Assembly (NCBI GenBank): GCA_017540225.1
Contig: JAFYBM010000231.1
Coordinates: forward strand, 1-51,943
Direction of reading: 5' to 3'
DNA length: 51,943 bases
Source: Oscillospiraceae bacterium
GTDB lineage: Bacteria > Bacillota > Clostridia > Oscillospirales > Ruminococcaceae
Part shown: positions 2,968 through 30,870 of the stretch, piece after piece
Numbering within the stretch: position 1 is the first letter of the stretch
Layout: the number at the start of each line of letters is the position of its first letter
Position numbers and translations under genes: made by a program
Notes under the pieces: model-generated
Databases searched by the model: none
What the model saw: the letters and a program-made list of their open reading frames with translations, nothing else
What the model was told of the DNA's origin: nothing

Positions 2968-3049
2968 CCGGAGCGGCAAAACCGTTCTTCCCTGCATATT
3001 ATAATCATACAGATACAATTGCGCATCAGCAGAAACGGAGAATCAAGCC

Positions 3050-3979
3050 ATGATCTATGACAATATTCTGGCGGCGCTCGGCCATACGCCGATCATCCGC
3101 CTCAACAAGATGAATAAACCCGGCAATGCCGAAATCCTCGTCAAATTCGAGGGCCTGAATGTCGGCGGCTCGATCAAGACCCGCACGGCCTACAATATGA
3201 TCCTCAATGCAGAAAAAGCCGGAAAAATCAAGCCGGATACGATCATTGTGGAGCCGACAAGCGGCAATCAGGGCATCGGGCTTGCGCTGGTCGGCGCTGT
3301 CCGCGGCTATCAGACCGTTATCATTATGCCGGATTCGGTCAGTGAGGAGCGCCGCAAGCTCGTGCGGCATTACGGCGCCGAGGTCATCCTGATCCACGAT
3401 GACGGCGACATCGGAAAATGTATCCAGCAGTGCCTTGATACCGCGCTTGATATGGCGCGGAAGGATCCGCGTGTGTTTGTTCCGCAGCAGTTTGAAAATC
3501 CCGATAATACCCGCGCACACAAATATGCGACCGCACTGGAGATTCTGGAGCAGGTCGGCGGCCGGATCGACGGCTTCTGCTCCGGCATCGGTACAGGCGG
3601 AACGATCACCGGCATCGGTGAAACGCTGAAATCCCAGAATCCCGAAATGGAAATCTGGGCGGTTGAGCCGGAGCACGCAGCTATTCTCGCCGGCGGAACG
3701 GTCGGCACACATCTGCAAATGGGCATCGGTGACGGCATTATCCCGACAATTCTCAACCGCAGCATCTACGATCACATCCATATCGTAACAGATGACGACG
3801 CCATCAGAACAGCACAGCAGCTCGCCTCTATGGAGGGCATCATGTGCGGCATTTCGAGCGGAACGAACGTTGCGGCAGCACTGAAACTCGCTGAAAAGCT
3901 CGGTGAGGGCAAAACGGTTGTCACGATCCTGCCGGATACCGCAGAGCGTTATTTCTCGACGCCGCTCTTTGCGGAATGA
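3050..3979 (+). CDS. cysK: Cysteine synthase (O-acetylserine sulfhydrylase)
   Basis: PLP enzyme that makes cysteine from O-acetylserine and sulfide. The PLP lysine is in GGSIKTR near residue 44; the substrate loop PTSGNQG and the phosphate-binding glycine loop GTGGTITG are intact. Its 309 residues match the family's usual length. An RBS (ACGGAG) precedes the ATG. The stop overlaps the start of the DUF1284 gene (ATGA), so the two are probably co-translated. A lone TATAAT at 3000-3005 could be a -10 box, but no good -35 is seen. No serine acetyltransferase is nearby. Confidence 0.94.
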   Translation: MIYDNILAALGHTPIIRLNKMNKPGNAEILVKFEGLNVGGSIKTRTAYNMILNAEKAGKIKPDTIIVEPTSGNQGIGLALVGAVRGYQTVIIMPDSVSEERRKLVRHYGAEVILIHDDGDIGKCIQQCLDTALDMARKDPRVFVPQQFENPDNTRAHKYATALEILEQVGGRIDGFCSGIGTGGTITGIGETLKSQNPEMEIWAVEPEHAAILAGGTVGTHLQMGIGDGIIPTILNRSIYDHIHIVTDDDAIRTAQQLASMEGIMCGISSGTNVAAALKLAEKLGEGKTVVTILPDTAERYFSTPLFAE

Positions 3980-16575: not shown

Positions 16576-18723
16576 TTATGCTTTCAGGGCACGCGGCACG
16601 GTTCTGACGTCCAGAACGGTCAGCAGACCGTCGCCGTCCGCATCGGCGTCTGCGTAGTTGAGGTCAGGGTGCTCGGTATCCGGCAGCTCCGCCAGTACGC
16701 GTGCGATCAGAACCGCATCCGAAACGGTGACATTGCCGTCGCCGTCGAGGTCGCCCGCGGCAGATGCCGCTGCACCCGCGGATTCCAGGGTCAGCGTCAG
16801 CGCACCGTCCGGTGTCATCGAACCCTCCGACATTGTACCTTCTTTCTTGCTGTCTTTGAAGATGATCTCACCTTCACCGGCTGTGATCTTCCAGGTCAGC
16901 TTCGAGCCCTTCTCGTACCAGAACTTTCCGTTGACCGTCTTGAATGCACCGGTATCGTTCGTCACGGAAATCTTCATGCCGCCGGCTGTCTCATAGCAGC
17001 ATTCGTTTTCTCCGACAGCTGCATATTTCAGCGGTACAAGCTGGGTTGACCGCACCTCTACGGTCAGCGGTTCATAGACGGTTGTTTTATCGTAGGTTCT
17101 GGTGTATTCGTCTTCCTGCTTGTAGTTGCGCTCGTAGAGTTCCATATTCCGTCCGTTGTCCAGCAGATAGAAGTTAATTAGCTCATGGCTCACGATCTGA
17201 TAACCGTTTTCTGTCAGCCGCAGCACGACATCACAAGGGCCGCCGAGGAAGTAGCGGCAGGGGCCGTATTCTGTTTGTTCGGTGAAATAATCAAAATATT
17301 CAACCATGCCTTCTTCGACAGTCCAGCCGGCCATGCCGCCCTCGCCCATTGAACTGACTCCGCGCACATAGATCATGTCGCCGTCCTGCCAGTAATTCAG
17401 CATCTTGCCGAACATATCCCAGCCGCCGGCGCCGCCGGCAAACTTAATCATCTGAACAGTACCTGCATCCTTGTCATACTGATAACTCATACCCGGTGTC
17501 TCGCCGGAGCCGTCCTCCAGGAAGAAATCCTTGAGATCGGTGTGATTTGCAAAGATTTCATCGGCATATGCAATGAAATCCGCATAGGGGATCGTGTATG
17601 CCACGCCGATCCGTTTTTCGTTGATATATTCTGTCTTCCAGAGGTTTTCAATGCTGGCTTTCGTATAGAAATGCCTTGCGACCATATCTGCGACAAATCC
17701 GTCATCGGCCGGCTCATCTGCGCTGAAGCAGTTGCTGAATTGATACATTTCGCCAAACAGACTGCTGAGCTCATCAAGCTTGGCTGTTTCTGCATCCCGC
17801 GTATATGTCAGTGTCAGCGTCAGAGGGCCTTCGGAGCTGATTCTGTCACCAGTTACCTCACCGGAGCTTTTGGCGGTTTCATAGGAGAGCGTGAATTCTT
17901 CGGTTGCTTCCGGATTCTTCTTAATCAGCAAATCGCCGGCTTCGGGCTTCCAGATCCTGTCATTGACCATCCGCAGAGACAGCCCATCACCGCTGAGCGT
18001 GACCAGTGTTCCGTAGCTGCCGGAAAGATTGAATTTTCCGTTTCCTACATACTGATCGTTTTCGTTCGGCTCCTGATCTTCGCCGATAAAGGGTACGCCG
18101 AGCGTATCTTTACCCATCAGCGGATTCGGGGTTTTCGTCAGGACAGTAACCGGAACATAGGTCGTGGTCATATAAATGCTGCCGTCCTCATTAAAATCAC
18201 GCACATACAGTTTGTCTCCGACGACATAACGGTCGGACGGCCAGAAATAATCGGGATCGGCGGTTTCATCCGACGCATTGCAGCGCAAAGGCTGGAGGTT
18301 GCCATCCCAATCCTGCTGCAAAATCATTTCATAAGGACGTAAAATCTGATAATAGGTCTGCGATTCCGCATCGTAATTGCAGTAATCGATGTTTTCGGTC
18401 ATCGTTTCATCCGGTGTGCCCTCTGTTTCAAGGCAGGATGTCAGGCTGACGTATAATCCGGAGCCGTCCCAGCTTTCTTTATAATACGCCGCCCAGAGCA
18501 CATAACGCAGCGGCTGATCGGGATTTGCGGCGATATGGCGGTTTGCCTCATCGTGGAACAGCGCATATACCTTCTCCGCAACAGGTGCCGGCAGTCCGGT
18601 CGCCTCGTCGATCTGATTCGCTGCGGGCGGTTTCTCGCTTTCTCCGGCGAATGCGGTCAGCGGTGAGAGCGTGCAGAGCATCGCGCCGCTGAGCAGAATG
18701 CTCAAATACTTTTTGAATCTCAT
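16576..18723 (-). CDS. Secreted dockerin-containing protein of unknown catalytic role
   Basis: A 715-residue exported protein. The signal peptide (MRFKKYLSILLSGAMLCTLS, cleavage near AFAGE) starts at the ATG at 18723, chosen for its RBS AAAAGGAGG; earlier in-frame starts would spoil the signal. The C-terminal 60 residues form a type I dockerin with two calcium loops (DLDGDGNVTVSDAVLIARVL and DADGDGLLTVLDVRTV). The region in between is rich in Tyr, Asp and Thr, with repeated beta-like segments and a stretch resembling bacterial surface proteins; I recognise no glycosidase motif. A dockerin implies docking to a cohesin scaffold, as in cellulosome-forming ruminococci. No scaffoldin is in the window. 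Confidence 0.88.
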   Translation of the reverse strand: MRFKKYLSILLSGAMLCTLSPLTAFAGESEKPPAANQIDEATGLPAPVAEKVYALFHDEANRHIAANPDQPLRYVLWAAYYKESWDGSGLYVSLTSCLETEGTPDETMTENIDYCNYDAESQTYYQILRPYEMILQQDWDGNLQPLRCNASDETADPDYFWPSDRYVVGDKLYVRDFNEDGSIYMTTTYVPVTVLTKTPNPLMGKDTLGVPFIGEDQEPNENDQYVGNGKFNLSGSYGTLVTLSGDGLSLRMVNDRIWKPEAGDLLIKKNPEATEEFTLSYETAKSSGEVTGDRISSEGPLTLTLTYTRDAETAKLDELSSLFGEMYQFSNCFSADEPADDGFVADMVARHFYTKASIENLWKTEYINEKRIGVAYTIPYADFIAYADEIFANHTDLKDFFLEDGSGETPGMSYQYDKDAGTVQMIKFAGGAGGWDMFGKMLNYWQDGDMIYVRGVSSMGEGGMAGWTVEEGMVEYFDYFTEQTEYGPCRYFLGGPCDVVLRLTENGYQIVSHELINFYLLDNGRNMELYERNYKQEDEYTRTYDKTTVYEPLTVEVRSTQLVPLKYAAVGENECCYETAGGMKISVTNDTGAFKTVNGKFWYEKGSKLTWKITAGEGEIIFKDSKKEGTMSEGSMTPDGALTLTLESAGAAASAAGDLDGDGNVTVSDAVLIARVLAELPDTEHPDLNYADADADGDGLLTVLDVRTVPRALKA

Positions 18724-18744
18724 AAAAGGCCTCCTTTTAATACA

Positions 18745-18775
18745 CGGAAAGAGCCCGTCATCAAGGCTCTTTCCG
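18745..18775 (-). terminator. Hairpin after the EF-G-like gene
   Basis: CGGAAAGAGCC pairs with GGCTCTTTCCG (18745-18755 with 18765-18775) in the short space between the EF-G-like stop and the dockerin RBS. The T-run after it is poor, so it may only weaken read-through. Confidence 0.55.
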
Positions 18776-18781
18776 AAATGC

Positions 18782-20872
18782 TTATTCTTCTTCGTCATCC
18801 TTTTTGACGCTTGCAACAACCTCATCGAGCAGGTTTGCCGGCAGCGGCTCATAGCGCAGGAATTCAAACGTGAATTCGCCCATGCCCTTTGCAACCTGAC
18901 GCAGATACATTGTGAAGTCATGCATCTCGCGCACCGGAACCTCCGCCTGAATGACGGTAATGCCGTCACCGGCCGGCTCCATGCCGAGCACACGGCCGCG
19001 GCGCTTGTTCAGATCGCCCATGATGTCGCCGGTCTTCGCATCCGGAATGGATACGCTCAGCGCACCGATCGGCTCCAGCATGATCGGATTCGCCTGCTTC
19101 ATGCCTTCCTTGAAAGCGAGCTGTGCAGCGGTCTTGAAGGCCATTTCAGAGGAATCGACAGGATGATAGGAACCGTCGATCAGTGTTGCCTTGATGCCGA
19201 CAACAGGGCAGCCTGCCAGAACGCCCTTCTTGACGCTCTCCTGCAAGCTTTTTTCGATTGCAGGGAAAAAGTTTTTCGGAACGGAACCGCCGAAGATCTT
19301 TTCCTCAAAGACGAGGGTATCGCTGTCGGTCGGCTCAAATTCGATCCACACATCACCGAACTGGCCGTGGCCGCCGGACTGCTTCTTATGGCGTCCCTGC
19401 ACCTTGTCGGTCTTCTTGCGGATGGTCTCACGGTAAGCGATCTTCGGTTCTTCAAGAACAATATCCACGCCGAATTTGCTCTTCATCTTTGCCTTGACGA
19501 CATCCAGATGCTGGTCACCGAGACCTGCAAGGATCTGCTCCTTTGTTGTGGTATCAAGTCCGAAGCTGAGTGCCTGATCCTCCTCAAGCAGTCTCTGGAG
19601 ACCGCCGGAAATCTTTGCCTCATCGCCCTGCTTGCTGGCCTTGACCGCCATACGGTATGTCGGGTGCGGATATTCAACCTTTTCATAGGCAATCACGCGA
19701 TCCGGATCACAAAGCGTGTCGCCGGTATTTGCGGAAATCTTGGTTGCGATAACAATATCACCGGCAACCGCAGAGGCAACCTCTGTCTGCTTTTTGCCCA
19801 GCATGGTATAGAGCTTGCCGACGCGCTCGGAGCTGCCGGTTGTCGCATTGACTAGATCCTTATCCGGCGTCAGCGTACCGGTGATGACCTTGATGAAGCT
19901 CATCTTGCCGACGAACGGGTCAGCGACCGTGCGGAATACGAATGCGGAAAGCGGTGCGGAAGCATCGACCTTGACCTCGATCTCCTTGCCGTCCTTACCG
20001 GTTGCCTTGCGTGCGCCTGCCGCAGAGGGATCCGGCATATACTTGAGGAACTCAAGCAGCAGATCGCAGCCGGCAGGATTGGTGCAGGAAACAGTGAACA
20101 CCGGCATTGCACGGCCGGTACGCATTGCCTCGTGAATACCGTGGCTGATCTCCTCCTGCGTGAAAGCCTCGCCCTCGAAGAATTTTTCCATCAGCTCATC
20201 GCTGGTCTCTGCAACGGCCTCACTGAGTCCGTCCATGAGGGAATCCGCGGTAACGCCTTCTTTATCATTGAGCACGATGCCGGAAGCATCTGCTGCAACG
20301 GAAACGCCCTTTTTATCATAGGTATAGGACTTCATTCTGCCGAGGTGAACAAGAGATTTGAACTGATTGTTTGCGATCTCCGGAACAATAACCGGGCAGA
20401 CGGAAGCGCCGAAATTCTCTTTCAGGGAATTGAGCACCGAATAGAAATCCTGATTCGGATCGTCGATCTTTGTCACAACAAAGAGGATATGCTTTCCGAG
20501 CTTCTTTGCAGCCTGAAATGCCTTGATTGTACCGACATGGACACCGGACTTTGCAGATACGCAGATAATAACGGTATCGCCTGCGAAAAGGCCCTCATTG
20601 GTCGCAGCAGCAAAGTCGATCAGACCCGGCGCATCCAGCAGATTGATCTTGAAATCGCTGTATTCAAAGCTGGCAAGTGAAAGATTGATTGAATACTTGC
20701 GCTTGATCTCCTCCGGATCAAAGTCGCAGACGGTATTGCCGTCAACGGCCTTTCCCATGCGGTCGAGGATGCCGGCGCGGTAGAGCAGTGCTTCTGCCAG
20801 AGCAGTTTTTCCGCAGCCGCTGTGGCCGGTGAGTACGATGTTTTTGATTTTCGAGGTATCCAGGTTTTTCAT
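18782..20872 (-). CDS. EF-G-like translational GTPase (EF-G2 type paralogue)
   Basis: A 696-residue protein with all EF-G domains. The P-loop is GHSGCGKT and G3 is DAPG, as in the EF-G-like subfamily rather than classical EF-G. The G4 motif reads TKID instead of the usual NKxD. The switch-I region (RKYSINLSLA) also differs from the ERGITI-type of true EF-G. The C-terminal EF-G domains IV-V are present (GHGQFGDVWIEFEP, GRVLGMEP) and the tail is acidic (KKDDEEE). The RBS TAAGGAGAG and a good promoter lie upstream. Its role is unproven: it may act in ribosome recycling, rescue or stress rather than routine translocation. Confidence 0.9.
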   Translation of the reverse strand: MKNLDTSKIKNIVLTGHSGCGKTALAEALLYRAGILDRMGKAVDGNTVCDFDPEEIKRKYSINLSLASFEYSDFKINLLDAPGLIDFAAATNEGLFAGDTVIICVSAKSGVHVGTIKAFQAAKKLGKHILFVVTKIDDPNQDFYSVLNSLKENFGASVCPVIVPEIANNQFKSLVHLGRMKSYTYDKKGVSVAADASGIVLNDKEGVTADSLMDGLSEAVAETSDELMEKFFEGEAFTQEEISHGIHEAMRTGRAMPVFTVSCTNPAGCDLLLEFLKYMPDPSAAGARKATGKDGKEIEVKVDASAPLSAFVFRTVADPFVGKMSFIKVITGTLTPDKDLVNATTGSSERVGKLYTMLGKKQTEVASAVAGDIVIATKISANTGDTLCDPDRVIAYEKVEYPHPTYRMAVKASKQGDEAKISGGLQRLLEEDQALSFGLDTTTKEQILAGLGDQHLDVVKAKMKSKFGVDIVLEEPKIAYRETIRKKTDKVQGRHKKQSGGHGQFGDVWIEFEPTDSDTLVFEEKIFGGSVPKNFFPAIEKSLQESVKKGVLAGCPVVGIKATLIDGSYHPVDSSEMAFKTAAQLAFKEGMKQANPIMLEPIGALSVSIPDAKTGDIMGDLNKRRGRVLGMEPAGDGITVIQAEVPVREMHDFTMYLRQVAKGMGEFTFEFLRYEPLPANLLDEVVASVKKDDEEE

Positions 20873-20989
20873 GTGTGAAACTCTCCTTACTGCCGCGTGC
20901 GCGATGGAGTACTAATCCGATCAAAAATTTCGGAAGCGCGTTCTTTTTCTGTGAGCACGGCACTCTGCGCAAACGTATTTAACATTCTT

Positions 20990-21018
20990 ATTATACCATG
21001 TGTGAAAAAACCTTTCAA
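20990..21018 (-). promoter_or_regulatory. Promoter TTGAAA-17-TATAAT for the EF-G-like gene
   Basis: On the minus strand, TTGAAA (21018-21013), a 17-bp spacer and TATAAT (20995-20990), about 115 bp before the ATG. This leaves an untranslated leader of roughly 110 bases. Confidence 0.78.
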
Positions 21019-21289
21019 GTGTGAATTTCATTTTCTACGTTTTCACGAAAAACAGCCATGTGATTTGTGCATTATAACAACATTTTCCAGCCGGCATCCC
21101 GCTTATTTTTGATAGATAGACTATCAGGCGATGGTGAAAAGCCGTCCCGATCGGGAGCGCTGAAAACTGTGCAGCCGGCTTCAAATATACAGGCAGAGCA
21201 AAACGGCCGGCGGTGCTGCCGCCGGATGCACGGTCTTTTTCGGGAACAGGCTTTGTGCGGCAGAAATAAGACGAAATCCCTTCTTGCCC
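21019..21289. other. Non-coding spacer with several dyads between divergent genes
   Basis: No convincing gene in either strand. Dyads seen: TGATAG/CTATCA around 21110-21126, CCCGATCGGG at 21146-21155, and CCGGCGG-TGCTG-CCGCCGG at 21207-21225, with TCTTTTTC ten bases on. These could belong to a small RNA or to terminators, but I cannot assign a known class and see no clear extra promoter. Confidence 0.5.
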
Positions 21290-21319
21290 TTGACGAATCC
21301 CATCTTGATGTGCTATAAT
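21290..21319 (+). promoter_or_regulatory. Promoter TTGACG-18-TATAAT for the pyrF operon
   Basis: TTGACG (21290-21295) and TATAAT (21314-21319), about 65 bp before the pyrF start. The leader is short and I see no PyrR-type attenuator hairpin in it. Confidence 0.78.
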
Positions 21320-21384
21320 ATGATTGCATACTATGGGTCTGTATGCCTTGTAAGACCAACTATATAAAAAAGGGGATACAAATT

Positions 21385-22308
21385 ATGTCTTTCGATCGTC
21401 TGATTTCCAAAATCATCAGTATGAAAAACCCGACCGTAGCCGGCCTTGATCCGAAGCTCGATTATGTTCCTGCGTTCATTCGCAAGGGCTTCCTTGAGGA
21501 GGACGGCGAAACCCTCAAGGCCGCTGCCAAAGCGATTTATCGCTATAACCAGCTCCTGATTGACGCGCTCTGCGACATCGTGCCGGCCGTCAAACTGCAG
21601 GCCGCTTATTATGAAATGTACGGGCATCACGGCGTCAAAACAATGGAGCGTACCATCCGCTATGCAAAGCTCAAGGGAATGTATGTCATCACTGACGGCA
21701 AGCGCAATGACATCGGTGCAACAATGGAAGCCTATACCGCTGCGCATCTCGGTTCCGTCAGGATCGGCGAGTGCGAATATGAACCGTTCGGCGCGGATGC
21801 ACTGACTGTCAACGGCTATCTCGGTACAGACGGCATTTCCCCGCTTCTCGGTGTTTGCAAAGAGCGTGAAAAAGGCATTTTCGTCCTCTGCAAGACCTCC
21901 AATCCCTCCTCCGGCGAATTTCAGGATCTTCTGATCGACGGCGTGCCGCTCTATGCGCACATGGGCGATCAGTGCGAGAAATGGGGCGAGGAGACACGCG
22001 GTACTTACGGCTACAGCGGCGTCGGCGCGGTCGTCGGCGCAACCTATCCGGAGCAGCTCACGGAGCTTCGCAAGCGTCTGCCGCATACAATGTTCCTCGT
22101 GCCGGGCTACGGCGCACAGGGCGGCGGCGCAGCAGGCATTGCCGGTGCATTTGACGAAAACGGTCTCGGCGCGATTGTCAACAGCTCCCGTGCGATCATG
22201 TGCGCCTATAAAAAAGAGGGCTGCGATGAGCGCGATTTCGCTGAGGCTGCCCGCAGAGAGGCCGTCCGCATGAGAGAGGATCTGACCTCGTATATCAGCA
22301 TCGGATGA
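21385..22308 (+). CDS. pyrF: Orotidine 5'-phosphate decarboxylase
   Basis: Last step of UMP synthesis: OMP to UMP. It is the long bacterial form (307 residues), with substrate motif TVAGLDPK near the start and the catalytic block DGKRNDIG. The late phosphate-binding region LVPGYGAQGGG is present. The ATG at 21385 has RBS AAAAAGGGG upstream; a further in-frame ATG at 21343 has none. It is the first gene of an operon continuing through a Nudix-like protein, pyrK and pyrD, with ATGA overlap to the next gene. Confidence 0.95.
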   Translation: MSFDRLISKIISMKNPTVAGLDPKLDYVPAFIRKGFLEEDGETLKAAAKAIYRYNQLLIDALCDIVPAVKLQAAYYEMYGHHGVKTMERTIRYAKLKGMYVITDGKRNDIGATMEAYTAAHLGSVRIGECEYEPFGADALTVNGYLGTDGISPLLGVCKEREKGIFVLCKTSNPSSGEFQDLLIDGVPLYAHMGDQCEKWGEETRGTYGYSGVGAVVGATYPEQLTELRKRLPHTMFLVPGYGAQGGGAAGIAGAFDENGLGAIVNSSRAIMCAYKKEGCDERDFAEAARREAVRMREDLTSYISIG

Positions 22309-23081
22309 CGGACACATCCCAGCCGCAGAGCTGCCATGTTCATGCGGTAATCCGGCAAAGCGGAAAGATCCTCATGCTTTACAGCGGGAAATACGGCTAT
22401 TATAAATTCCCGCACGGACAGACGGAAACCGGCGAAACACCGGAGCAGGCGCTCTGCCGCATTGTCTCTGCTCAGACAGGGCTTTCCGTTCTGCCCGAAA
22501 GCATCCGTCCCTGCTGCAATGTGATGTATCATCCCGAAGACAGCGGAACACAGGCGCATTTCTATTACGGCTGCAAGGTCAGCGGCACGCATTCCGCTGC
22601 GGCACCGGACGGAGAAGGCCGCTTTCTGCTGAAAGAGATCTCCCGCAGACAGGCGCTGACGGCAAACAAAACGGAGGATCACGGGATTCTGGCGGAGGAT
22701 GCACGGTTTCAGGCAATGCTGAACCGCGAAAACCTTGTTCTGCATTCTCTGCGGATATTTACGCCGCTGATGCTCAGCATTTTTGCCGTGATCGGTTCGC
22801 TGCTGATTCCGGTGATCGGCGGGCTTTCTTGCCTGATTTTCGGCTTTCACAGTCCCACGGACGGCGGATATGTATACGGCATGGATGCCTTTGAAGTCGG
22901 ACTGATTCTGGGGATCTTTCCGGCCGGACCTGCTCTGGCCGTCAGCATTACGGCGCTGCTGCTGAGTCTGCGGGATAAACGCAGGGGCAGCCGGAAAAAG
23001 AATGCATATGTTCTGCCGCTGATCGCGCTTGCCCTCCTGCTGCTCTATGCAATGGCTGCGGCCGGATTCGGCAACAGATGA
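22305..23081 (+). CDS. Nudix-like domain with degenerate catalytic box, fused to membrane helices
   Basis: A 258-residue protein. Residues about 8-120 form a Nudix-type fold (VHAVIRQSGKILMLYSGKYGYYKFPHGQTETGE). The Nudix box aligns as G38, E44, R52, then Ile53, Ala56 and Gln57 where catalytic Glu residues belong, then Gly59-Leu60. The metal-binding REUxEE core is therefore lost and pyrophosphatase activity is unlikely. The C-terminal part (about 145-258) has three strong membrane helices and a basic loop (RDKRRGSRKK). It sits between pyrF and pyrK, overlapping pyrF by 4 bp. A nucleotide-sensing membrane protein is a possible role; this is inference. Confidence 0.8.
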   Translation: MTDTSQPQSCHVHAVIRQSGKILMLYSGKYGYYKFPHGQTETGETPEQALCRIVSAQTGLSVLPESIRPCCNVMYHPEDSGTQAHFYYGCKVSGTHSAAAPDGEGRFLLKEISRRQALTANKTEDHGILAEDARFQAMLNRENLVLHSLRIFTPLMLSIFAVIGSLLIPVIGGLSCLIFGFHSPTDGGYVYGMDAFEVGLILGIFPAGPALAVSITALLLSLRDKRRGSRKKNAYVLPLIALALLLLYAMAAAGFGNR

Positions 23082-23105
23082 AAATACAAATAATGGTGAT
23101 GTATC

Positions 23106-23894
23106 ATGAAACAAGACAAATATACCGAAAAACTGACATACCGTATCCGCGCGATGGAGCAGCTCACGGCGGCTGCATGGAGCATGGTGATCGAATGTCC
23201 GGAAGCCGCTGCAAAAGCACAGCCCGGACAGTTTGTGAACATCCTGCCGGACGGGGCATTCACCCTGCGCCGCCCGATCTCGATCTGCGGCATTGACAAA
23301 AAGCAGGGCACACTGCGCATTGTCTTTGAGGTGCGCGGCAAGGGCACAAAGGCGCTCTCGGAGCTGCGCGCCGGCGATACCGTCAATATGCTTGCACCGC
23401 TCGGTCACGGCTTTACGCTGCCCGCGCCGGATTCGCGTGTGATTCTGGTCGGCGGCGGCATCGGCACACCGCCCATGCTCCCGCTTGCAGAATATTTCGG
23501 TAAAAATGCCGTTGTGATCTCCGGTTTCCGCAATCGGGATGCCGTGATTTTGCAGGATGATTTCGCTGCTGCCGGTGCAAAGACGATTCTCTGCACCGAT
23601 GACGGCTCTGCCGGCAGATTCGGCCTTGTAACGCTGCCGCTGGAGGAGGAGATCAAGGCGGAAAAACCTGCGCTGATCTGTGCCTGCGGCCCGCTTCCGA
23701 TGCTCAGAGCGACGGCGGCGCTTGCCGAGGCATATGAGATTCCGTGTCAGGTTTCACTGGAGGAGCGTATGGGCTGCGGCATCGGTGCGTGTCTGGTCTG
23801 CGCCTGCCGCACCAAGGACGCAAACGGCGATGAGCAGTACACCCATGTCTGCAAAAACGGTCCGGTGTTCAATGCGAAAGAGGTGATCTGGTAA
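23106..23894 (+). CDS. pyrK: Dihydroorotate dehydrogenase electron transfer subunit
   Basis: FAD and [2Fe-2S] subunit that links class 1B dihydroorotate dehydrogenase to NAD+. The 262 residues show an FAD-binding barrel (RRPISICGID), a nucleotide-binding domain (ILVGGGIGTPPMLPLA) and the C-terminal cluster motif ERMGCGIGACLVCAC...HVCKNGPVF with four cysteines. The RBS is weak (GGTGAT), suggesting translational coupling to the upstream gene. It overlaps pyrD by one base (TAATG). Confidence 0.94.
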   Translation: MKQDKYTEKLTYRIRAMEQLTAAAWSMVIECPEAAAKAQPGQFVNILPDGAFTLRRPISICGIDKKQGTLRIVFEVRGKGTKALSELRAGDTVNMLAPLGHGFTLPAPDSRVILVGGGIGTPPMLPLAEYFGKNAVVISGFRNRDAVILQDDFAAAGAKTILCTDDGSAGRFGLVTLPLEEEIKAEKPALICACGPLPMLRATAALAEAYEIPCQVSLEERMGCGIGACLVCACRTKDANGDEQYTHVCKNGPVFNAKEVIW

Positions 23895-24805
23895 TGGCTG
23901 ATCTGTCTGTCAAAATCTGCGGCATTCCGTTCAAGAATCCGGTCATTCCGGCATCCGGCGTGTTCGGCTACGGCCGCGAATATGAGCAATATTACGATCT
24001 GTCGCGGCTCGGCGGCATTTCCACAAAGGGTACGACCGGCACAAAGCGTACCGGCAATCTGCCGCCGCGTGTCGCGGAAACACCGATGGGAATGCTCAAT
24101 TCGGTCGGCTTGCAGAATCCCGGCATTGATGCGTTTATCGCAAATGAGCTGCCGCATCTGCTTGCCTGTGATACGGTGATCCTCGCAAATATCGCCGGCT
24201 CGACACCCGAGGAATGCGCGGAGGTCGCGGCAAAGCTCGACAAGACCGATGTCCACATGATCGAGCTGAATATTTCCTGCCCGAATGTCCGGCAGGGCGG
24301 CGCCGCGTTCGGAACCTCCTGCACGGCGGCAGCGCAGGTGACAAAGGCAGTCCGTGCGGCAACGAAAAAGCCGCTCTGCGTCAAGCTCTCCCCGAATGTC
24401 ACAAGCATTGCTGAAATAGCAAAGGCCGTGGAGTCCGAGGGCGCAGATGCGATCTCACTGATCAACACGCTGCTCGGAATGCGCATTGATCTGCGCACCA
24501 GACGGCCGATCCTGCATAACAATATGGGCGGATTTTCCGGTCCGGCGATCTTTCCGGTTGCGGTGCGGATGGTCTGGCAGGCCGCAAACGCTGTGAAGCT
24601 GCCAATCATCGGCATGGGCGGCATTTCGTCCGGCGAGGACGCCGCAGAAATGATGATGGCAGGTGCATCGGCGGTGCAGGTCGGCACCGCGATTGTGCAG
24701 GATCCTTACGCGCCGCTGCGCATCATTGACGAGCTGAATGACTGGCTCGATAAGAACGGCGTCGATTCCGCTGCCGAGCTGACAGGAAGCGTGAAGCCGT
24801 GGTAA
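23894..24805 (+). CDS. pyrD: Dihydroorotate dehydrogenase B, catalytic subunit
   Basis: FMN enzyme that oxidises dihydroorotate to orotate, passing electrons to PyrK. It has the usual 303 residues and the class 1B signatures PASGVFGYG, LNISCPN (catalytic-base Cys), SLINTLLGMRID and GMGGISSGEDA. It follows pyrK directly and its end overlaps the GTG start of the phosphatase gene by 7 bp. pyrC and pyrE are not in the window; pyrB lies 5 kb downstream. Confidence 0.95.
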   Translation: MADLSVKICGIPFKNPVIPASGVFGYGREYEQYYDLSRLGGISTKGTTGTKRTGNLPPRVAETPMGMLNSVGLQNPGIDAFIANELPHLLACDTVILANIAGSTPEECAEVAAKLDKTDVHMIELNISCPNVRQGGAAFGTSCTAAAQVTKAVRAATKKPLCVKLSPNVTSIAEIAKAVESEGADAISLINTLLGMRIDLRTRRPILHNNMGGFSGPAIFPVAVRMVWQAANAVKLPIIGMGGISSGEDAAEMMMAGASAVQVGTAIVQDPYAPLRIIDELNDWLDKNGVDSAAELTGSVKPW

Positions 24806-25470
24806 CAACGGTGTATCTTATACGGCACGGTGAGGCTGAGGGCAATGTACTGCCGTATTTTCAGGGCACATCCGATACCTCACTGACCGAAAGAGGGCGC
24901 GAACAGCTGAAATATCTGGCGGAGCGCTTTCGCACGGTTCCGCTGGATGCGATCTATTACAGTCCATGGAAGCGTGCGCAGGAAACAGCCGAGGCCGTCA
25001 ACCGGTTTCACGGACTGCAAATGATCCCCGACCGCGCACTGCGTGAAATCTGCGGCGGTGACTTTGAGGGTGTACCGGTTGCGGAGCTGGCAGACCGGTT
25101 CCCTGCGGAATTCGGGGTATGGACAAATCATATCTGGGATTTTCAGGCGCCGAACGGCGAAGCAATGACTTCCGTTTTTCAGCGTATGTCCGAGGCCGTG
25201 ACACGCATTGCGCAGGAAAATCCGGACAAAACCATCGCAGTCTGCTCGCACGGCTGTGCGCTGCGGAATTTTCTCTGCTATGCCGAATTCGGTGACATCA
25301 CCCGTCTGAATGATGTCGGCTGGGCGGATAATACCGCTGTTTCCTGTGCAGAATATGATCCTGAAACCGGATGGCGCCTTGTTTTCAAGAACAGCGCCTC
25401 CCATTTGCCGAAGGAACTGCGCGCCGCACCCAATCCTGCATGGTCACCCGATGACGAGGAGGACACATGA
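24799..25470 (+). CDS. Histidine phosphatase (phosphoglycerate-mutase-like) family protein
   Basis: A 223-residue phosphatase-fold protein with the catalytic motif YLIRHGEAEGN at the N-terminus and the second histidine in CSHGCALRNF. Acidic and arginine residues expected around the phosphate are present (YYSPWKRAQETA). It begins at a GTG inside the end of pyrD and overlaps ruvX by 4 bp, so it is translated as part of the pyr operon. Substrate unknown; the position suggests a nucleotide or sugar phosphate, but this is inference. Confidence 0.88.
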   Translation: MVTTVYLIRHGEAEGNVLPYFQGTSDTSLTERGREQLKYLAERFRTVPLDAIYYSPWKRAQETAEAVNRFHGLQMIPDRALREICGGDFEGVPVAELADRFPAEFGVWTNHIWDFQAPNGEAMTSVFQRMSEAVTRIAQENPDKTIAVCSHGCALRNFLCYAEFGDITRLNDVGWADNTAVSCAEYDPETGWRLVFKNSASHLPKELRAAPNPAWSPDDEEDT

Positions 25471-25895
25471 TTATTTTCGGTGTTGATTTCGGGGATACCC
25501 GCACGGGCTGGGCAGTCTGTGACCGCTCGGAGATGATGGCATCTCCGGCAGGGGTGCTGACAGAAAAAAATTTCCTGCACTGCGCCGAAAAAACCGCAGA
25601 GGCGGCATTGAATGCGCACGCAGAGATGATCGTTGTCGGGCATCCGAAAAACATGGATGGAAGCTGCGGCGAACGGGCACAGAAATGCGAGGATTTTGCA
25701 CATATGCTCGAAGAAAAAACCGGTTTGCCGGTCATTCTCTGGGATGAGCGCTGCACAACGGTTTCTGCGCATAATTTCCTCAATGTAACAAATACGCGCG
25801 GCAAAAAGCGCAAGGCTGTCGTGGATGCCGTTGCCGCGACCATTATTCTCGAAAGCTATCTTGCCTACCGCAAGAATAAAGGTGCCAATCCGTGA
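25467..25895 (+). CDS. ruvX: Holliday junction resolvase-like / pre-16S rRNA nuclease
   Basis: YqgF/RuvX family RNase H-fold nuclease, thought to process the 5' end of pre-16S rRNA or to resolve DNA junctions. Its 142 residues are standard. Catalytic acids are in GVDFGDTRTG, WDERCTT and DAVAATIILE. Its ATG overlaps the phosphatase stop (ATGA) and the gene ends just before a palindromic repeat element. Confidence 0.92.
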   Translation: MIIFGVDFGDTRTGWAVCDRSEMMASPAGVLTEKNFLHCAEKTAEAALNAHAEMIVVGHPKNMDGSCGERAQKCEDFAHMLEEKTGLPVILWDERCTTVSAHNFLNVTNTRGKKRKAVVDAVAATIILESYLAYRKNKGANP

Positions 25896-25898
25896 GGC

Positions 25899-25965
25899 AG
25901 AGGTATCTCCGATGGATTTGTAGCGGGGGCGTACCCTTCACTACAAATCCGCCGGAGGCACCTCT
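25899..25965 (+). repeat. Dispersed palindromic intergenic element, copy 2 (best preserved)
   Basis: Left arm 25899-25923 (AGAGGTATCTCCGATGGATT plus 5 bases) and right arm 25941-25965 pair at 21 of 25 positions around a 17-base loop. Convergent genes flank it, and the right end overlaps the stop codon (25964-25966) of the small minus-strand gene. It may serve as a terminator as well. Confidence 0.8.
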
Positions 25966-26137
25966 ATCTCATGAGGTCGGCAACGCTGTCCATGACGGCG
26001 CCGAGGGCATGGGCGGCCTTGACGGTGCGGCGCTTGAATTTTGATTTCTCGCTTTTGGAGGCGCTGCTGACAAGATAGCCGACCATTCCGGCGGCCGCGC
26101 CGACAGCCATACCTTTTGCGATTGCCTGAAACTGCAT
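25964..26137 (-). CDS. Small unknown protein, possible membrane-associated helix
   Basis: A 57-residue protein of unknown function, read from the ATG at 26137, chosen for its RBS AAAGGAG. The first half is a Gly/Ala-rich hydrophobic helix (KGMAVGAAAGMVGYLVSSAS), the second half is basic (KSEKSKFKRRTVKAAH) and amphipathic. This layout resembles small YtxH-like proteins. Its stop codon lies in the end of a palindromic element. It runs opposite to its neighbours. Confidence 0.65.
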   Translation of the reverse strand: MQFQAIAKGMAVGAAAGMVGYLVSSASKSEKSKFKRRTVKAAHALGAVMDSVADLMR

Positions 26138-26224
26138 ATCAAAACGGCTCCTTTCTTGCTTGATACTGTTATCATGCCGCGCCGTTTGCTGCATATGCAA
26201 GCCTTATTCTGAGATAAAGGATGT

Positions 26225-26779
26225 ATGATTTTGCATAAACTGCATTTTGTTCTGGTTGAGCCGCGGATTCCGCAGAATACCGGCAGCATCGCACGCACCT
26301 GTGCGGTCACGGGCGCTGCGCTGCATCTGATCCACCCGCTCGGCTTCAAAATCGACGACGCAAAATTAAAGCGCGCCGGCCTTGACTACTGGGATAAGCT
26401 CGATATTTTTCACTATGAGAATCTCGACGCTTTTTTTGCGCAGCACCCTGCCGCGACGGAACAGAATCCCTATTTCTATTTCACGGCAAAAACAGGCACG
26501 CTCTATACCGATGTATCATATCCGGAGGAAACATTTTTATTCTTCGGCAGAGAGGATACCGGTCTGGATGATGCGCTGCTGCAGGCGCATCCGGAACGCT
26601 GCGTGCGTATTCCGATGCGGGAGACGCTGCGCTGTCTCAATCTTTCCAATTCTGTTGCGATTGCTGCCTATGAAGTTCTGCGGCAGCATGATTTCGCGGG
26701 ACTGACCCGTGACGGCCGCTGGGCAAAATCCGACTGGGAGCCGGATGCCCCGAGAGAATACGACATCAGTCAAATCTGA
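26225..26779 (+). CDS. trmL: tRNA (cytidine/uridine-34 2'-O)-methyltransferase, SpoU family
   Basis: SAM-dependent trefoil-knot methyltransferase that modifies the wobble base of some leucine tRNAs. The 184 residues show the SpoU motifs: VEPRIPQNTGSIARTC near the start, FFGREDTGLD in the middle and LNLSNSVAIAAYEVLRQ near the end. The ATG at 26225 is preceded by a modest site (ATAAAGGA). The DegV gene follows 16 bp later. Confidence 0.93.
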   Translation: MILHKLHFVLVEPRIPQNTGSIARTCAVTGAALHLIHPLGFKIDDAKLKRAGLDYWDKLDIFHYENLDAFFAQHPAATEQNPYFYFTAKTGTLYTDVSYPEETFLFFGREDTGLDDALLQAHPERCVRIPMRETLRCLNLSNSVAIAAYEVLRQHDFAGLTRDGRWAKSDWEPDAPREYDISQI

Positions 26780-26795
26780 GAAAGGAATGAACCCT

Positions 26796-27677
26796 ATGCT
26801 GAAACAAAAAATCAAGCTGATGACCGATTCGGTCAGCGACATCTCCAAGGAACAGGCAGAGGCGCTCGGCATTCATATGCTCTATATCCCGATCACAGTC
26901 GAGGGCAAGCCGCTGCGCGAGGAACTTGACTTCACAAAGGAAGAATTTTACGAAATGATCGAAAAGGCGCAGGAATATCCTTCGACTGCGCAGATCACGC
27001 CCTTTGAGATTCAGGAGGCTTATGAGCAGATTGCCGCCGAGGGCTGCACCGATCTCATCTATATGACAATCGGCGCGGGCGGCTCCGGTACATATGCCAA
27101 TGCGGAAATGGCCAAGACGCAGTATTTTGAGGAGCATCCGGACAGCAGCCTGAAAATCCATCTGGTTGACGGCCGCAATTATACCGCAACCTACGGCTAT
27201 GCCGTGGTTGAAGCGGCAAAAAAGCTGGCACGCGGTGCCGGTGTCAAGGAAATTGTCAGCTATCTGGACGACTGGGCACGCCATGCGGGACTTTATTTTG
27301 TGCCGATGACGCTGAAATATGTCAAGCGCTCCGGCAGAGTGAGCGCAGCAGCGGCATTTGCCGGTGAGCTGCTCGGCTTAAAGCCCTTCTGCCGCATCTG
27401 CAACTGCACATCCAGTGTGCTTCAGAAGATCCGCGGAGAACAGAATATCATTCCGAAAATGGTTGAGACGGTCAAGGCCGATATGCAGCCGCATTCGCCG
27501 TATATCGTGATGCAGGGCAGCAATCCGAAGCTCGCACAGGATCTGGGCGCCGCACTGACAAAGGCGCTCGGCTATCCGCCGGAGGCCTATTGGAGCATCG
27601 GCGCAGCAATCTGCTGCAATGCCGGCCCCGATGTCGTCGGCTTTGTGATTAAACGGCAGGAGGAAGCAGCGGACTGA
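26796..27677 (+). CDS. DegV family fatty-acid-binding protein
   Basis: A 293-residue DegV-type protein, the family of FakB-like fatty acid carriers for fatty acid kinase. Signatures: LMTDSVSDIS at the start, the YPSTAQITPFE loop and MTLKYVKRSGRVSAAAAF near residue 170. I prefer the ATG at 26796 because AGAAAGG lies 10 bases before it; the ATG at 26787 is too close. No fakA is nearby, so the function is inferred from the family only. Confidence 0.9.
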   Translation: MLKQKIKLMTDSVSDISKEQAEALGIHMLYIPITVEGKPLREELDFTKEEFYEMIEKAQEYPSTAQITPFEIQEAYEQIAAEGCTDLIYMTIGAGGSGTYANAEMAKTQYFEEHPDSSLKIHLVDGRNYTATYGYAVVEAAKKLARGAGVKEIVSYLDDWARHAGLYFVPMTLKYVKRSGRVSAAAAFAGELLGLKPFCRICNCTSSVLQKIRGEQNIIPKMVETVKADMQPHSPYIVMQGSNPKLAQDLGAALTKALGYPPEAYWSIGAAICCNAGPDVVGFVIKRQEEAAD

Positions 27678-27750
27678 AATTCTGACAGTCCGCCCGGCTC
27701 GGGAAGCGATTTTGAACGCGGGTATGCCCGCAGGAGGCAAATATAAGAAT

Positions 27751-29619
27751 ATGTGTGGAATTGTAGGATTTACAGGCTGCAAAGCTGATGCAAAGGCTGT
27801 TTTAGCGGAAATGATGGAAAAGATCCGTCACCGCGGCCCTGATGCAGGCGGCAGCTATCTTGATGACGACATTGCGCTCGGACACCGCCGCCTTTCAATC
27901 ATAGACATTACAGAACAAGGCGACCAGCCTATTTTTAATGAGGACCGCTCAATGGTTCTCATCTTCAACGGCGAGATCTACAATTATCAGGACATCCGCA
28001 GAGAGCTGATTGCCGCAGGCCACAGCTTCAAAACGGAGACAGATTCCGAAGTCCTGATCCACGGCTACGAGGAATACGGCACGGAGCTGCTCAATAAGCT
28101 GCGCGGAATGTTCTCCTTTGTGATCTGGGATACAAAGAAAAAGGAGCTTTTCGGCGCAAGAGATTTCTTCGGCATCAAGCCGATGTATTATGCGCAGATG
28201 GGCGATACATTCATGTTCGGCAGCGAGATCAAATCCTTTCTGCCGCATCCCGATTTCAACAAGGAGCTGAATACCGCCGCACTGGAGCAGTATCTTACCT
28301 TCCAGTATTCCCCGACGGAGGACACCTTCTTCAAGGGCGTCAAAAAGCTGCCCGCCGCGCATTATTTCCTCTGGAAGGACGGAAAACTGACTGTTGCACG
28401 CTACTGGGATGTGCATTTTGAGGCGGATGACCAGCCGCTGCTCGGTGACTGGGTCAAAACCATTTCCGAGACCTTCAGCGATTCTGTTGCCGCACATAAG
28501 ATCGCGGATGTCGAGGTCGGCAGCTTTCTTTCTTCCGGTGTCGATTCAAGTTATGTTGCGGCGGTTGCCAATGTTGACAAAACCTTTACGGTCGGCTTCG
28601 GCAGCGATGAAAAGTATAACGAAATCGGCTGGGCAAAGCGCTTTTCGCGTGCGATCGGCAAGGAAAACTACAGCCATGTCATCACGCAGCAGGAATACTG
28701 GGAGGTGCTGCCGAAGATCCAGTATCAGATGGATGAACCGCTGGCAGACCCGTCCTGCATCGCGCTGTATTTTGTCTGCAAGCTGGCTGCGGAACAGGTC
28801 AAGGTCGTGCTTTCCGGCGAGGGCGCAGATGAGATTTTCGGCGGCTATAATGTCTACAGTGAGCCGAACGGTACATGGTATGACCGTCTGCCGATGGGAC
28901 TGCGGCGCGGCGTTGCAAATGCAGCAAGCATTCTGCCGGCCAAGCGCGGTGTGAATTTCCTTGTGCGCAAGGGCAGAACACTGGAAGAACGCTTCATCGG
29001 CAATGCATATATGTTCACGCCGGCCGAGCGCAAGGCGCTGCTCAAAATCAAAACGGATGCGCCTGATCCGACCGCTGTGACAAAGCCGTTTTATGAAAAG
29101 GTCAGCGGAGCGGATGCCGTTACAAAAATGCAGTATCTTGACCTGCATCTCTGGATGACGGGCGATATTCTGCTGAAAGCGGATAAGATGAGTATGGCAC
29201 ATTCGCTGGAGCTGCGCGTGCCGTTCCTTGATAAAGAGCTGATGCACGTTGCCGAGCAGATCCCGACAAGATTCCGCGTGACGCACAGTGTTCCGACTGA
29301 CGATCAGACACCGTATACAACAAAATATGCAATGCGTCTTGCGGCAAAACGGGATACGCCGCCCGAAACTGCCGATACCTCCGCAAAGAAAAAGCTCGGT
29401 TTTCCGGTGCCGATCCGTGTCTGGCTGAAACAGGATGACTGCTACAGCACCGTTCGCACGGCCTTTGTCTCGCCGGCTGCGGAACAGTTCTTCCATACGG
29501 AAAAGCTCGTTGCGCTGCTGGACGCGCACAAAAGCGGCAAGGGCGATTACAGCCGCAAAATCTGGACTGTCTATATGTTCCTTGTCTGGTATAAGGTCTA
29601 TTTCAGCAATGCGGAATGA
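27751..29619 (+). CDS. asnB: Asparagine synthase (glutamine-hydrolysing)
   Basis: Makes asparagine from aspartate, ATP and glutamine. The start MCGIVGF gives the catalytic Cys2 of the glutaminase domain (about 1-200). The synthetase domain has the ATP loop LSSGVDSSYVAA and the SGEGADEIFGGY motif. The 622 residues match the family. The RBS CAGGAGG is 13 bases from the ATG, a slightly long spacing. It sits between degV and pyrB and shares aspartate as a substrate with PyrB. Confidence 0.94.
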   Translation: MCGIVGFTGCKADAKAVLAEMMEKIRHRGPDAGGSYLDDDIALGHRRLSIIDITEQGDQPIFNEDRSMVLIFNGEIYNYQDIRRELIAAGHSFKTETDSEVLIHGYEEYGTELLNKLRGMFSFVIWDTKKKELFGARDFFGIKPMYYAQMGDTFMFGSEIKSFLPHPDFNKELNTAALEQYLTFQYSPTEDTFFKGVKKLPAAHYFLWKDGKLTVARYWDVHFEADDQPLLGDWVKTISETFSDSVAAHKIADVEVGSFLSSGVDSSYVAAVANVDKTFTVGFGSDEKYNEIGWAKRFSRAIGKENYSHVITQQEYWEVLPKIQYQMDEPLADPSCIALYFVCKLAAEQVKVVLSGEGADEIFGGYNVYSEPNGTWYDRLPMGLRRGVANAASILPAKRGVNFLVRKGRTLEERFIGNAYMFTPAERKALLKIKTDAPDPTAVTKPFYEKVSGADAVTKMQYLDLHLWMTGDILLKADKMSMAHSLELRVPFLDKELMHVAEQIPTRFRVTHSVPTDDQTPYTTKYAMRLAAKRDTPPETADTSAKKKLGFPVPIRVWLKQDDCYSTVRTAFVSPAAEQFFHTEKLVALLDAHKSGKGDYSRKIWTVYMFLVWYKVYFSNAE

Positions 29620-29773
29620 GCGCTGCGGCTGCACACATCTCACCTGAATAAAGAACGCCGGCGGGAAATCCTGATATTGGCCGGCTCATGACGGGCATCT
29701 TTGTGCGCCCGCTGTTCGCGGCAATTGTCGCTTCGATCTTCTTATCCTGAAAATCAAGACGGAGGTTAAAATT

Positions 29774-30856
29774 ATGGGCGAACAAAATTATTCGCATCTG
29801 ATCGACCTGAATGACTATCCCGTGGAATGGTGGAACAAGGTCATTTCACTCGGCGCTTCCATGTATGCACATCCGCAGCGCTATGTGCAGGCCTGCGCCG
29901 GAAAGATCATGGCAACGCTGTTCTATGAGCCGTCAACCCGCACGCAGATGAGCTTTCAGTCTGCGATGATCCGTCTGGGCGGCAGCATTATCGGCTTCGA
30001 TAATCCGATGAGCAGCTCTGTCTCCAAGGGCGAAAACATCAAGGATACCACAAAGGTCGTCAGCACTTACTCCGATATTCTCATTATCAGGCATCCGCTT
30101 GCCGGAACAGCAAAGGCAGCCGCGCTGACAGCGGAGTGTCCGGTTGTCAATGCCGGCGACGGCGGACACCTGCACCCGACACAGACGCTGACCGATCTGC
30201 TGACGCTCAGAATGGAAAAGGGCAGACTCGATCATCTGACGGTCGGGCTTTGCGGCGATCTGCTCTACGGCCGCACGGTGCATTCGCTCTGCAAGGCGCT
30301 CTCCTGCTATGAGGGCAACAAATTTGTTCTCATCTCCACGCCGGAATTACAGGTTCCCGATTATATCACAAAGCTGCTGCGCGATTCCGGCTGCGAATAC
30401 CGCACGGAATCCTCGCTGGATGATGCGATCGGTGAGCTGGATGTGCTTTACATGACACGCATTCAGCGGGAGCGTTTTCTCTCCGAGGCGGATTATCTCG
30501 CACAAAAGGATGTTTACCGCCTGACGACCGAAAAAATGAAGCGGGCGAAAAAGGATCTTGCCGTGCTGCATCCGCTGCCGCGTGTCGATGAGATCGAGAT
30601 TGCAGTGGATGACGACCCGCGCGCACTTTATTTCAAACAGGCGCAGTACGGAATGTATGTCCGTATGGCGCTGATCCTCCGGCTTCTGGAAAGCGAAAAG
30701 CCTGTGCCGCTGCTGCGTGGCGAATGCCGCAATGATCTGCGCTGCGTCAATAAGAAGTGCATCACCGCACAGGAGCACTATCTGCCGCATCAGTTCACGG
30801 AGGAATGCGGCCGCACAGTCTGCGAATTCTGTGAGGAACGCGCACTACAGATCTGA
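29774..30856 (+). CDS. pyrB: Aspartate carbamoyltransferase with C-terminal PyrI-like zinc module
   Basis: Catalyses carbamoyl phosphate plus aspartate to carbamoyl aspartate. The catalytic chain (about 1-312) has FYEPSTRTQMSF, the carbamoyl-phosphate motif, GDGGHLHPTQTLTDL and LHPLPRVDEI. After residue 312 an extra block of about 45 residues carries LRCVNKKCIT, a PHQF stretch and VCEFCEERAL. This spacing closely matches the four-cysteine zinc domain at the end of the ATCase regulatory chain PyrI. The nucleotide-binding allosteric domain of PyrI is absent. RBS ACGGAGG precedes the ATG. The 154-base gap upstream shows no clear regulatory structure. Confidence 0.92.
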   Translation: MGEQNYSHLIDLNDYPVEWWNKVISLGASMYAHPQRYVQACAGKIMATLFYEPSTRTQMSFQSAMIRLGGSIIGFDNPMSSSVSKGENIKDTTKVVSTYSDILIIRHPLAGTAKAAALTAECPVVNAGDGGHLHPTQTLTDLLTLRMEKGRLDHLTVGLCGDLLYGRTVHSLCKALSCYEGNKFVLISTPELQVPDYITKLLRDSGCEYRTESSLDDAIGELDVLYMTRIQRERFLSEADYLAQKDVYRLTTEKMKRAKKDLAVLHPLPRVDEIEIAVDDDPRALYFKQAQYGMYVRMALILRLLESEKPVPLLRGECRNDLRCVNKKCITAQEHYLPHQFTEECGRTVCEFCEERALQI

Positions 30857-30870
30857 CAGGGAGACACAGA

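Follow-up and report, generated by a model that had tools for sequence, protein, structure and literature searches.

Gene content of the pyrF-pyrK locus

The window (i.e., the whole stretch of DNA analyzed in this work, 51,943 nucleotides) carries a pyr cluster, in which a gene encoding a 258-aa protein with a degenerate Nudix domain and a membrane module is located between pyrF and pyrK. The following features were distinguished within this region:

21343..22308, + strand: pyrF (orotidine 5'-phosphate decarboxylase; Pfam PF00215, E 4.9e-21)
22305..23081, + strand: gene of the degenerate Nudix domain and membrane module, 258 aa
22329..22748, + strand: Nudix-fold domain, approximately residues 9-148 (AlphaFold2 model and structural matches)
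22416..22484, + strand: degenerate Nudix box, residues 38-60, with Ile53, Ala56, and Gln57 instead of Glu
22764..22841, + strand: predicted membrane helix 1, residues 154-179
22842..22880, + strand: conserved GFHSPTDGG loop, residues 180-192, predicted outside
22881..22973, + strand: predicted membrane helix 2, residues 193-223
22998..23072, + strand: predicted membrane helix 3, residues 232-256
23106..23894, + strand: pyrK (electron-transfer subunit of dihydroorotate dehydrogenase B; Pfam PF10418, E 3.4e-17)
23894..24805, + strand: pyrD (dihydroorotate dehydrogenase; Pfam PF01180, E 6.5e-87)

The initial annotation, made from the sequence, had placed this gene across the end of pyrF and before pyrK, and had read Glu53, Glu56, and Glu57 of its Nudix box as replaced by Ile, Ala, and Gln. 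Both readings were confirmed. The start of the gene overlaps the pyrF stop by 4 bp and 24 bp separate its end from pyrK; the protein matches PF00293 (the Nudix homology superfamily) by fold and profile, and the hydrolase box GX5EX7REUXEEXGU with its glutamates is absent (E53I, E56A, and E57Q). The structure prediction proposed there as a check agrees as well, since the AlphaFold2 model of the full-length protein predicts a Nudix fold for approximately residues 9-148. The pTM of this model is 0.69, and therefore the relative placement of the two halves of the protein is uncertain.

Conservation of the box changes and selection

The search of 5.8 billion proteins yielded 14 relatives with E < 0.001. 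One of them, P0003, nearly duplicates part of the window protein and was dropped from the conservation set, which comprised 14 rows with pairwise identities of 41-96% (median 52%). Ile53 and Gln57 are invariant in this set and Ala56 occurs in 13 of the 14 rows, the exception being P0006, which retained Glu56; counted over all degenerate rows, Glu53 and Glu57 were lost in 15/15 and Glu56 in 14/15. The box residues invariant in the alignment are R52, I53, V54, Q57, T58, and G59, and the box positions rank among the most conserved of the Nudix domain (9/17 invariant at positions 44-60 vs 31/137 for the Nudix part; hypergeometric test, 0.0035).

The dN/dS ratio (Nei-Gojobori) was below 1 in all ten pairs of the five degenerate genes with available DNA, ranging between 0.19 and 0.48 for the whole gene, 0.13 and 0.45 for the Nudix part, and 0.26 and 0.64 for the membrane part, with saturation distant only for the pair G020-G024 (0.19, 0.13, and 0.39, respectively). 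For five intact relatives, the ten pairs gave 0.16-0.28. Ratios below 1 thus indicate that the degenerate gene is constrained, in most pairs less tightly than the intact ones.

Other changes in the Nudix domain

In 33 intact rows, 45 columns were at least 95% fixed. The degenerate rows keep 13 of them (I16, G20, S27, Y32, E44, L50, R52, G59, Y87, C90, F107, N121, and R141), lose 26 (seven owing to gaps in the degenerate rows) and are mixed in six; the ligand of the intact enzyme may therefore not be retained. Position 105, which is Glu in 32/33 intact rows, is Asp in 9/15 and Glu in 1/15 degenerate rows; a possible metal ligand is thus retained in these rows. Moreover, 15 positions became newly fixed in the degenerate rows, including H13, R17, H37 (Gly37 was replaced by His in 14/15 rows), and R114. 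Four of the newly fixed residues (H13, R17, P46, and L118) are already found in 4/4 rows with a half-degenerate box, and the loss of the last glutamate was thus preceded by changes in part of the domain.

The Nudix part has a mean net charge of -9.3 in intact soluble proteins (31 rows, -18 to -4), -9.0 in intact membrane-fused ones (2 rows, -11 and -7), -4.8 in half-degenerate ones (4 rows, -8 to -3), and -0.1 in degenerate ones (15 rows, -3 to +4). The charge shift thus tracks the state of the box rather than fusion to the membrane module.

The membrane module

Three membrane helices, as described in the initial annotation, are predicted in the window protein; within the family this holds in part, because helix 3 is missing, judging by length, in 8/15 rows. 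The working unit is therefore the Nudix domain together with the hairpin formed by helix 1, the loop, and helix 2. The loop of this hairpin is conserved, with 7/12 of positions 178-189 invariant vs 18/112 across the membrane part (4e-4; 14 rows). Based on the basic residues following helix 2, the loop would be located outside and the Nudix domain in the cytoplasm.

At E up to 1, Pfam gave no match for the membrane module of P0001, P0009 gave weak DUF matches below the cut-off, and none of the five proteins scanned against NCBIfam matched a model over its cut-off; in the full-length fold search, the match list was filled by the Nudix part. Comparison of the window's module with 100 relatives gave seven matches at E 2e-14 or better, all from the same genus, and four weak ones (1.6e-4 to 0.009), one of which is a real fragment from G012. 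In the profile search of 297 genomes of the family, drawn from a larger group and including few members of the genus, ten genomes were matched and only the window itself confidently. The other nine matches are weak (E 2e-4 to 0.009); seven of their loci were read and resemble transporters, permeases, and similar proteins, with one proline-rich protein among them.

The module of the half-degenerate proteins shares 19-28% identity with the degenerate ones, as well as a similar P-x-x-GG loop, and judging by these sequences the two are probably homologous. A different hydrophobic three-helix tail was observed in P0024, an intact-box Nudix protein of the clade to which the G027 Nudix half belongs (see below); it is 11-25% identical to the other modules, no homology is claimed, and it is perhaps an independent membrane fusion.

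Distribution of slot genes within the genus

For the census of the pyrF-pyrK slot, 30 genomes of the genus were searched for pyrF (found in 29), pyrK (found in all 30), and the Nudix gene, and the slot was read wherever the spacing of pyrF and pyrK left room for a gene. A degenerate box with the membrane module was found in five genomes (G000, G002, G004, G020, and G024), in three of which (G004, G020, and G024) an intact Nudix gene lies downstream of the degenerate one. G009 also has a degenerate gene (contig C16), which encodes exactly the same protein as the gene of G004 (contig C40; loci L007 and L008), together with a second pyrF with an intact Nudix gene on another contig; because of this identity and the two pyrF matches, contamination of a metagenome bin is likely. 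G001 and G028 have a half-degenerate box with a longer membrane part, and G012, in which the membrane part reaches the contig edge, is probably of the same type. In G027, an intact box is fused to the same membrane module as in the degenerate genes, and six genomes (G005, G017, G021, G022, G025, and G029) have an intact Nudix gene only. There is no room for a gene in 12/30 genomes, where pyrF and pyrK are 24-198 bp apart, the slot of G007 (L066) holds another gene, leucine-rich-repeat-like by its repeats, and that of G010 was unreadable, with pyrF and pyrK on different contigs.

Both traits that the initial annotation had wished to see compared between homologs, i.e., the E-to-I/A/Q changes and the place beside pyrF, are kept among the relatives, the latter in the five degenerate genomes and on the G009 contig. 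All six degenerate copies that were read overlap pyrF by the same 4 bp; intact slot genes beside pyrF start 1-6 bp, and half-degenerate ones 8 bp, after the pyrF stop. Among the genomes searched, the degenerate family is confined to one genus, and the Nudix relatives examined in three other genera (G044, G048, and G075) are not located beside pyr genes. The records of the degenerate genes (five loci) are metagenome bins labelled Clostridia, Oscillospiraceae, or Ruminococcus, some of them from pig and sheep by name.

In view of these data, the suggested link to pyrimidine status found no support beyond the position of the gene: 12/30 genomes have no room for it, G007 has another gene in its place, and the relatives in other genera lie away from pyr genes. 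The PyrR leader was not found either, since the Rfam scan of 20700-31000 (E up to 1) revealed no credible RNA element, the sole match being IRES_HIF1 (E 0.35), far below its gathering score.

Small genes with hydrophobic stretches were also observed in the slot, at 2758-3735 of L057 (G004) and at 830-1297 (- strand) of L060 (G009), and the pyrF-pyrK slot looks like a hot spot for insertions. A phage or plasmid origin was considered and rejected, as tblastn of the protein gave no match in the phage or plasmid collection. It is also worth mentioning that the intact slot Nudix of L062 (G022, reverse strand, frame 1944-3281) and that of P0034 continue in frame into PyrK with no stop, and that this 445-aa frame is possibly a Nudix-PyrK fusion protein.

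Evolutionary history

The tree comprised 55 Nudix domains, near-copies included (several database proteins nearly equal genes of the genus), and the columns of the three Glu residues were excluded from it. The 15 degenerate rows form one group (99/99), which is joined by the four half-degenerate rows (99/98), both inside the intact slot genes; it should be stressed that the four half-degenerate rows include three that hardly differ from one another and that a long-branch warning applies where these groups meet. The box state requires a minimum of one change on this tree, which suggests a single origin of the box loss and a graded series of slot forms. The initial annotation had stated that intact-box homologs in the same position, or scattered changes, would point to simple decay. 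Such homologs do share the slot; they do not speak against a retained role, because on the tree they are the stock of the degenerate clade, and the changes are not scattered.

The boxes read RIVQEE in P0139, RTVQAE in G001, G028, and P0137, and RIVSAQ in the clade of the window, where P0139 was assigned to the half-degenerate type by sequence relationship and the RTVQAE copies sit in the slot. Based on these strings, the few rows available suggest that Glu53 was lost first, followed by Glu56 and then Glu57.

The Nudix half of G027 belongs to another, intact clade, and its grouping with the degenerate clade was rejected (AU test, p 4.9e-6). The membrane module of G027, however, shares 37-56% identity with the degenerate modules and was placed among them in the tree of the membrane part (97/98, 7-row set), although a position outside them is not rejected (AU test, p 0.127); the groups for both AU tests were named after the tree was seen. 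As the two halves fall into different clades, they have been recombined at least once, an outcome that a mis-assembled bin could imitate. The arrangement of G027 is also that of P0017, which comprises three sequences on two contigs, one of them seemingly the G027 contig itself.

Comparison with known Nudix systems

A close parallel is provided by human TRPM2, whose NUDT9-H domain has the box RILRQE, is inactive, and binds ADP-ribose; in this channel an inactive Nudix domain binds its ligand and moves an output domain, whereas the boxes of invertebrate TRPM2 are canonical and NUDT9 with the box RILGEE is inactive (PMC6461439, PMC4974056). The window protein shares with TRPM2 a membrane-fused Nudix domain with the first box Glu replaced by Ile, as well as the existence of intact-box relatives with the same architecture (PMC6461439). 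However, TRPM2 is a large tetrameric cation channel, while the window protein has 258 aa and two or three helices, and the third box Glu, kept in human TRPM2, is replaced here. In bacterial AraR and NrtR, two or three Glu residues are replaced, and upon ligand binding the C-terminal domain rotates around a hinge helix (PMC4666351). The likeness lies in a bacterial Nudix-like domain with replaced box glutamates and a C-terminal output, but their output is a winged-helix DNA-binding domain, and the C-terminus of the window protein consists of hydrophobic helices. The Pfam search of the window protein at E up to 1 gave NUDIX models only, with neither a winged-helix domain nor an ion-channel family.

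MutT-like and CTP-pyrophosphohydrolase-like structures (3gwy, 3hhj, and 3a6s) are 17-21% identical to the window protein and are described as enzymes; unlike them, it is devoid of the three box glutamates and carries a membrane module. The direct relatives are the intact slot Nudix genes of the same genus (P0029, P0031, G020, and G025), which differ in having a REVREE-type box, in being soluble, and in a net charge of about -9. A 2017 review of the Nudix clan includes transcriptional regulation and channel gating among the non-enzymatic roles, and the word "transmembrane" is absent from its main text (PMC5389931). In the part of the literature covered, no bacterial membrane-Nudix family of this type was found.

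Proposed function and alternative explanations

Since the substitutions are conserved, the gene is constrained, and it occupies the same place beside pyrF, these data are best read as a retained function without hydrolysis. To this extent the binding or sensing role put forward in the initial annotation stands; ligand binding as such is a prediction. We propose, with a probability of roughly 0.5, that the protein is a membrane-tethered sensor, which would bind a probably anionic ligand without hydrolyzing it. With the metal-binding glutamates gone, E44, R52, and the fold kept, and basic residues fixed, the Nudix domain, predicted to be cytoplasmic, would bind such a ligand independently of metal and would not perform Mg-dependent hydrolysis; the contacts would be made by the newly fixed His13, Arg17, His37, and Arg114. 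Ligand binding might then shift helix 133-148, which leads into membrane helix 1, and thereby change the state or partners of the hairpin, in a manner resembling the hinge helix of AraR. Metal-independent binding is a reasonable reading because of the TRPM2 and AraR/NrtR precedents, and the presence of the same module on an intact Nudix domain in G027 indicates that the two parts work as a pair. On the other hand, two or three helices would be few if the output were that of a channel or a transporter, and the distribution of the family is narrow, with the gene lacking in many members of the genus.

A fuller scenario is more tentative. A Nudix enzyme of the pyrimidine operon would have joined a membrane module, lost its metal site stepwise, and become a ligand-operated sensor, with the same module present on an intact Nudix domain in a sister species. 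The sensor would link a membrane event to a nucleotide signal, which might depend on UMP synthesis or on electron flow through PyrK/PyrD. If true, it would be a bacterial counterpart of the TRPM2 story within one genus of gut bacteria, in which extant forms with partly lost boxes, together with halves that recombined naturally, would provide a compact system for studying the transition from enzyme to sensor. The known outputs of inactive-Nudix sensors are DNA-binding domains (NrtR and AraR) and an animal ion channel (TRPM2); a small membrane output may reveal that gut anaerobes also sense nucleotides through a membrane branch.

Alternatively, the Nudix domain may serve as a protein-interaction surface, i.e., an adaptor or anchor holding PyrK/PyrD or the adjacent intact Nudix paralog at the membrane. 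The location between pyrF and pyrK, the in-frame continuation of the slot Nudix into PyrK in G022 and P0034, and the intact copy adjoining the degenerate one in G004, G020, and G024 argue for such a role. However, G002 (97% complete) has no intact paralog closer than 44% at E 1e-15 and G000 (77% complete) has none beside the gene itself, so a partner paralog is not general. In addition, 12/30 genomes of the genus possess PyrK and PyrD but lack the gene, and the newly fixed basic residues would suit ligand binding equally well. Overall, we regard the adaptor role as possible but rather unlikely.

It is highly improbable that the protein is still an enzyme, with other residues having taken over metal binding or catalysis. 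The catalytic base does vary among Nudix enzymes, and NUDT9 was nevertheless inactivated by replacement of the first Glu with Ile along with a change of the neighboring residue (RILGEE; PMC6461439). Position 105 is often acidic and P0139 is devoid of Glu53 only, but Glu53 and Glu57 are replaced in 15/15 rows and Glu56 in 14/15.

A function of the domain in binding RNA, or a nucleic acid of another kind, at the membrane seems a remote possibility. RNA-binding Nudix domains without the catalytic glutamates do exist (NUDT21/CFIm25), and the shift of the mean charge from -9.3 to -0.1 would fit such a function, but the individual values lie around zero (-3 to +4) and are not clearly positive. Slow decay of a gene copy is the least credible explanation, for despite dN/dS values that in most pairs exceed those of the intact genes (0.19-0.48 for the whole gene vs 0.16-0.28) and the loss of helix 3 in 8/15 rows, it is disfavored by a reading frame open in all copies seen, by identical replacements throughout, by newly fixed residues, and by dN/dS < 1.

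Other genes of the window

Directly 3' of a pyrB-like gene, at 30871-33057 (+ strand), a 728-aa protein with many hydrophobic stretches and without a Pfam match at E 0.001 is encoded. The elongation-factor-G-like gene at 18782-20872 (- strand; Pfam EFG_IV, E 1.3e-44) is divergent to the pyr cluster, and the long protein encoded at 16576-18993 (- strand) has a C-terminus matching Pfam Dockerin_1 (E 1.4e-6), a sign of cellulosome-type assembly.
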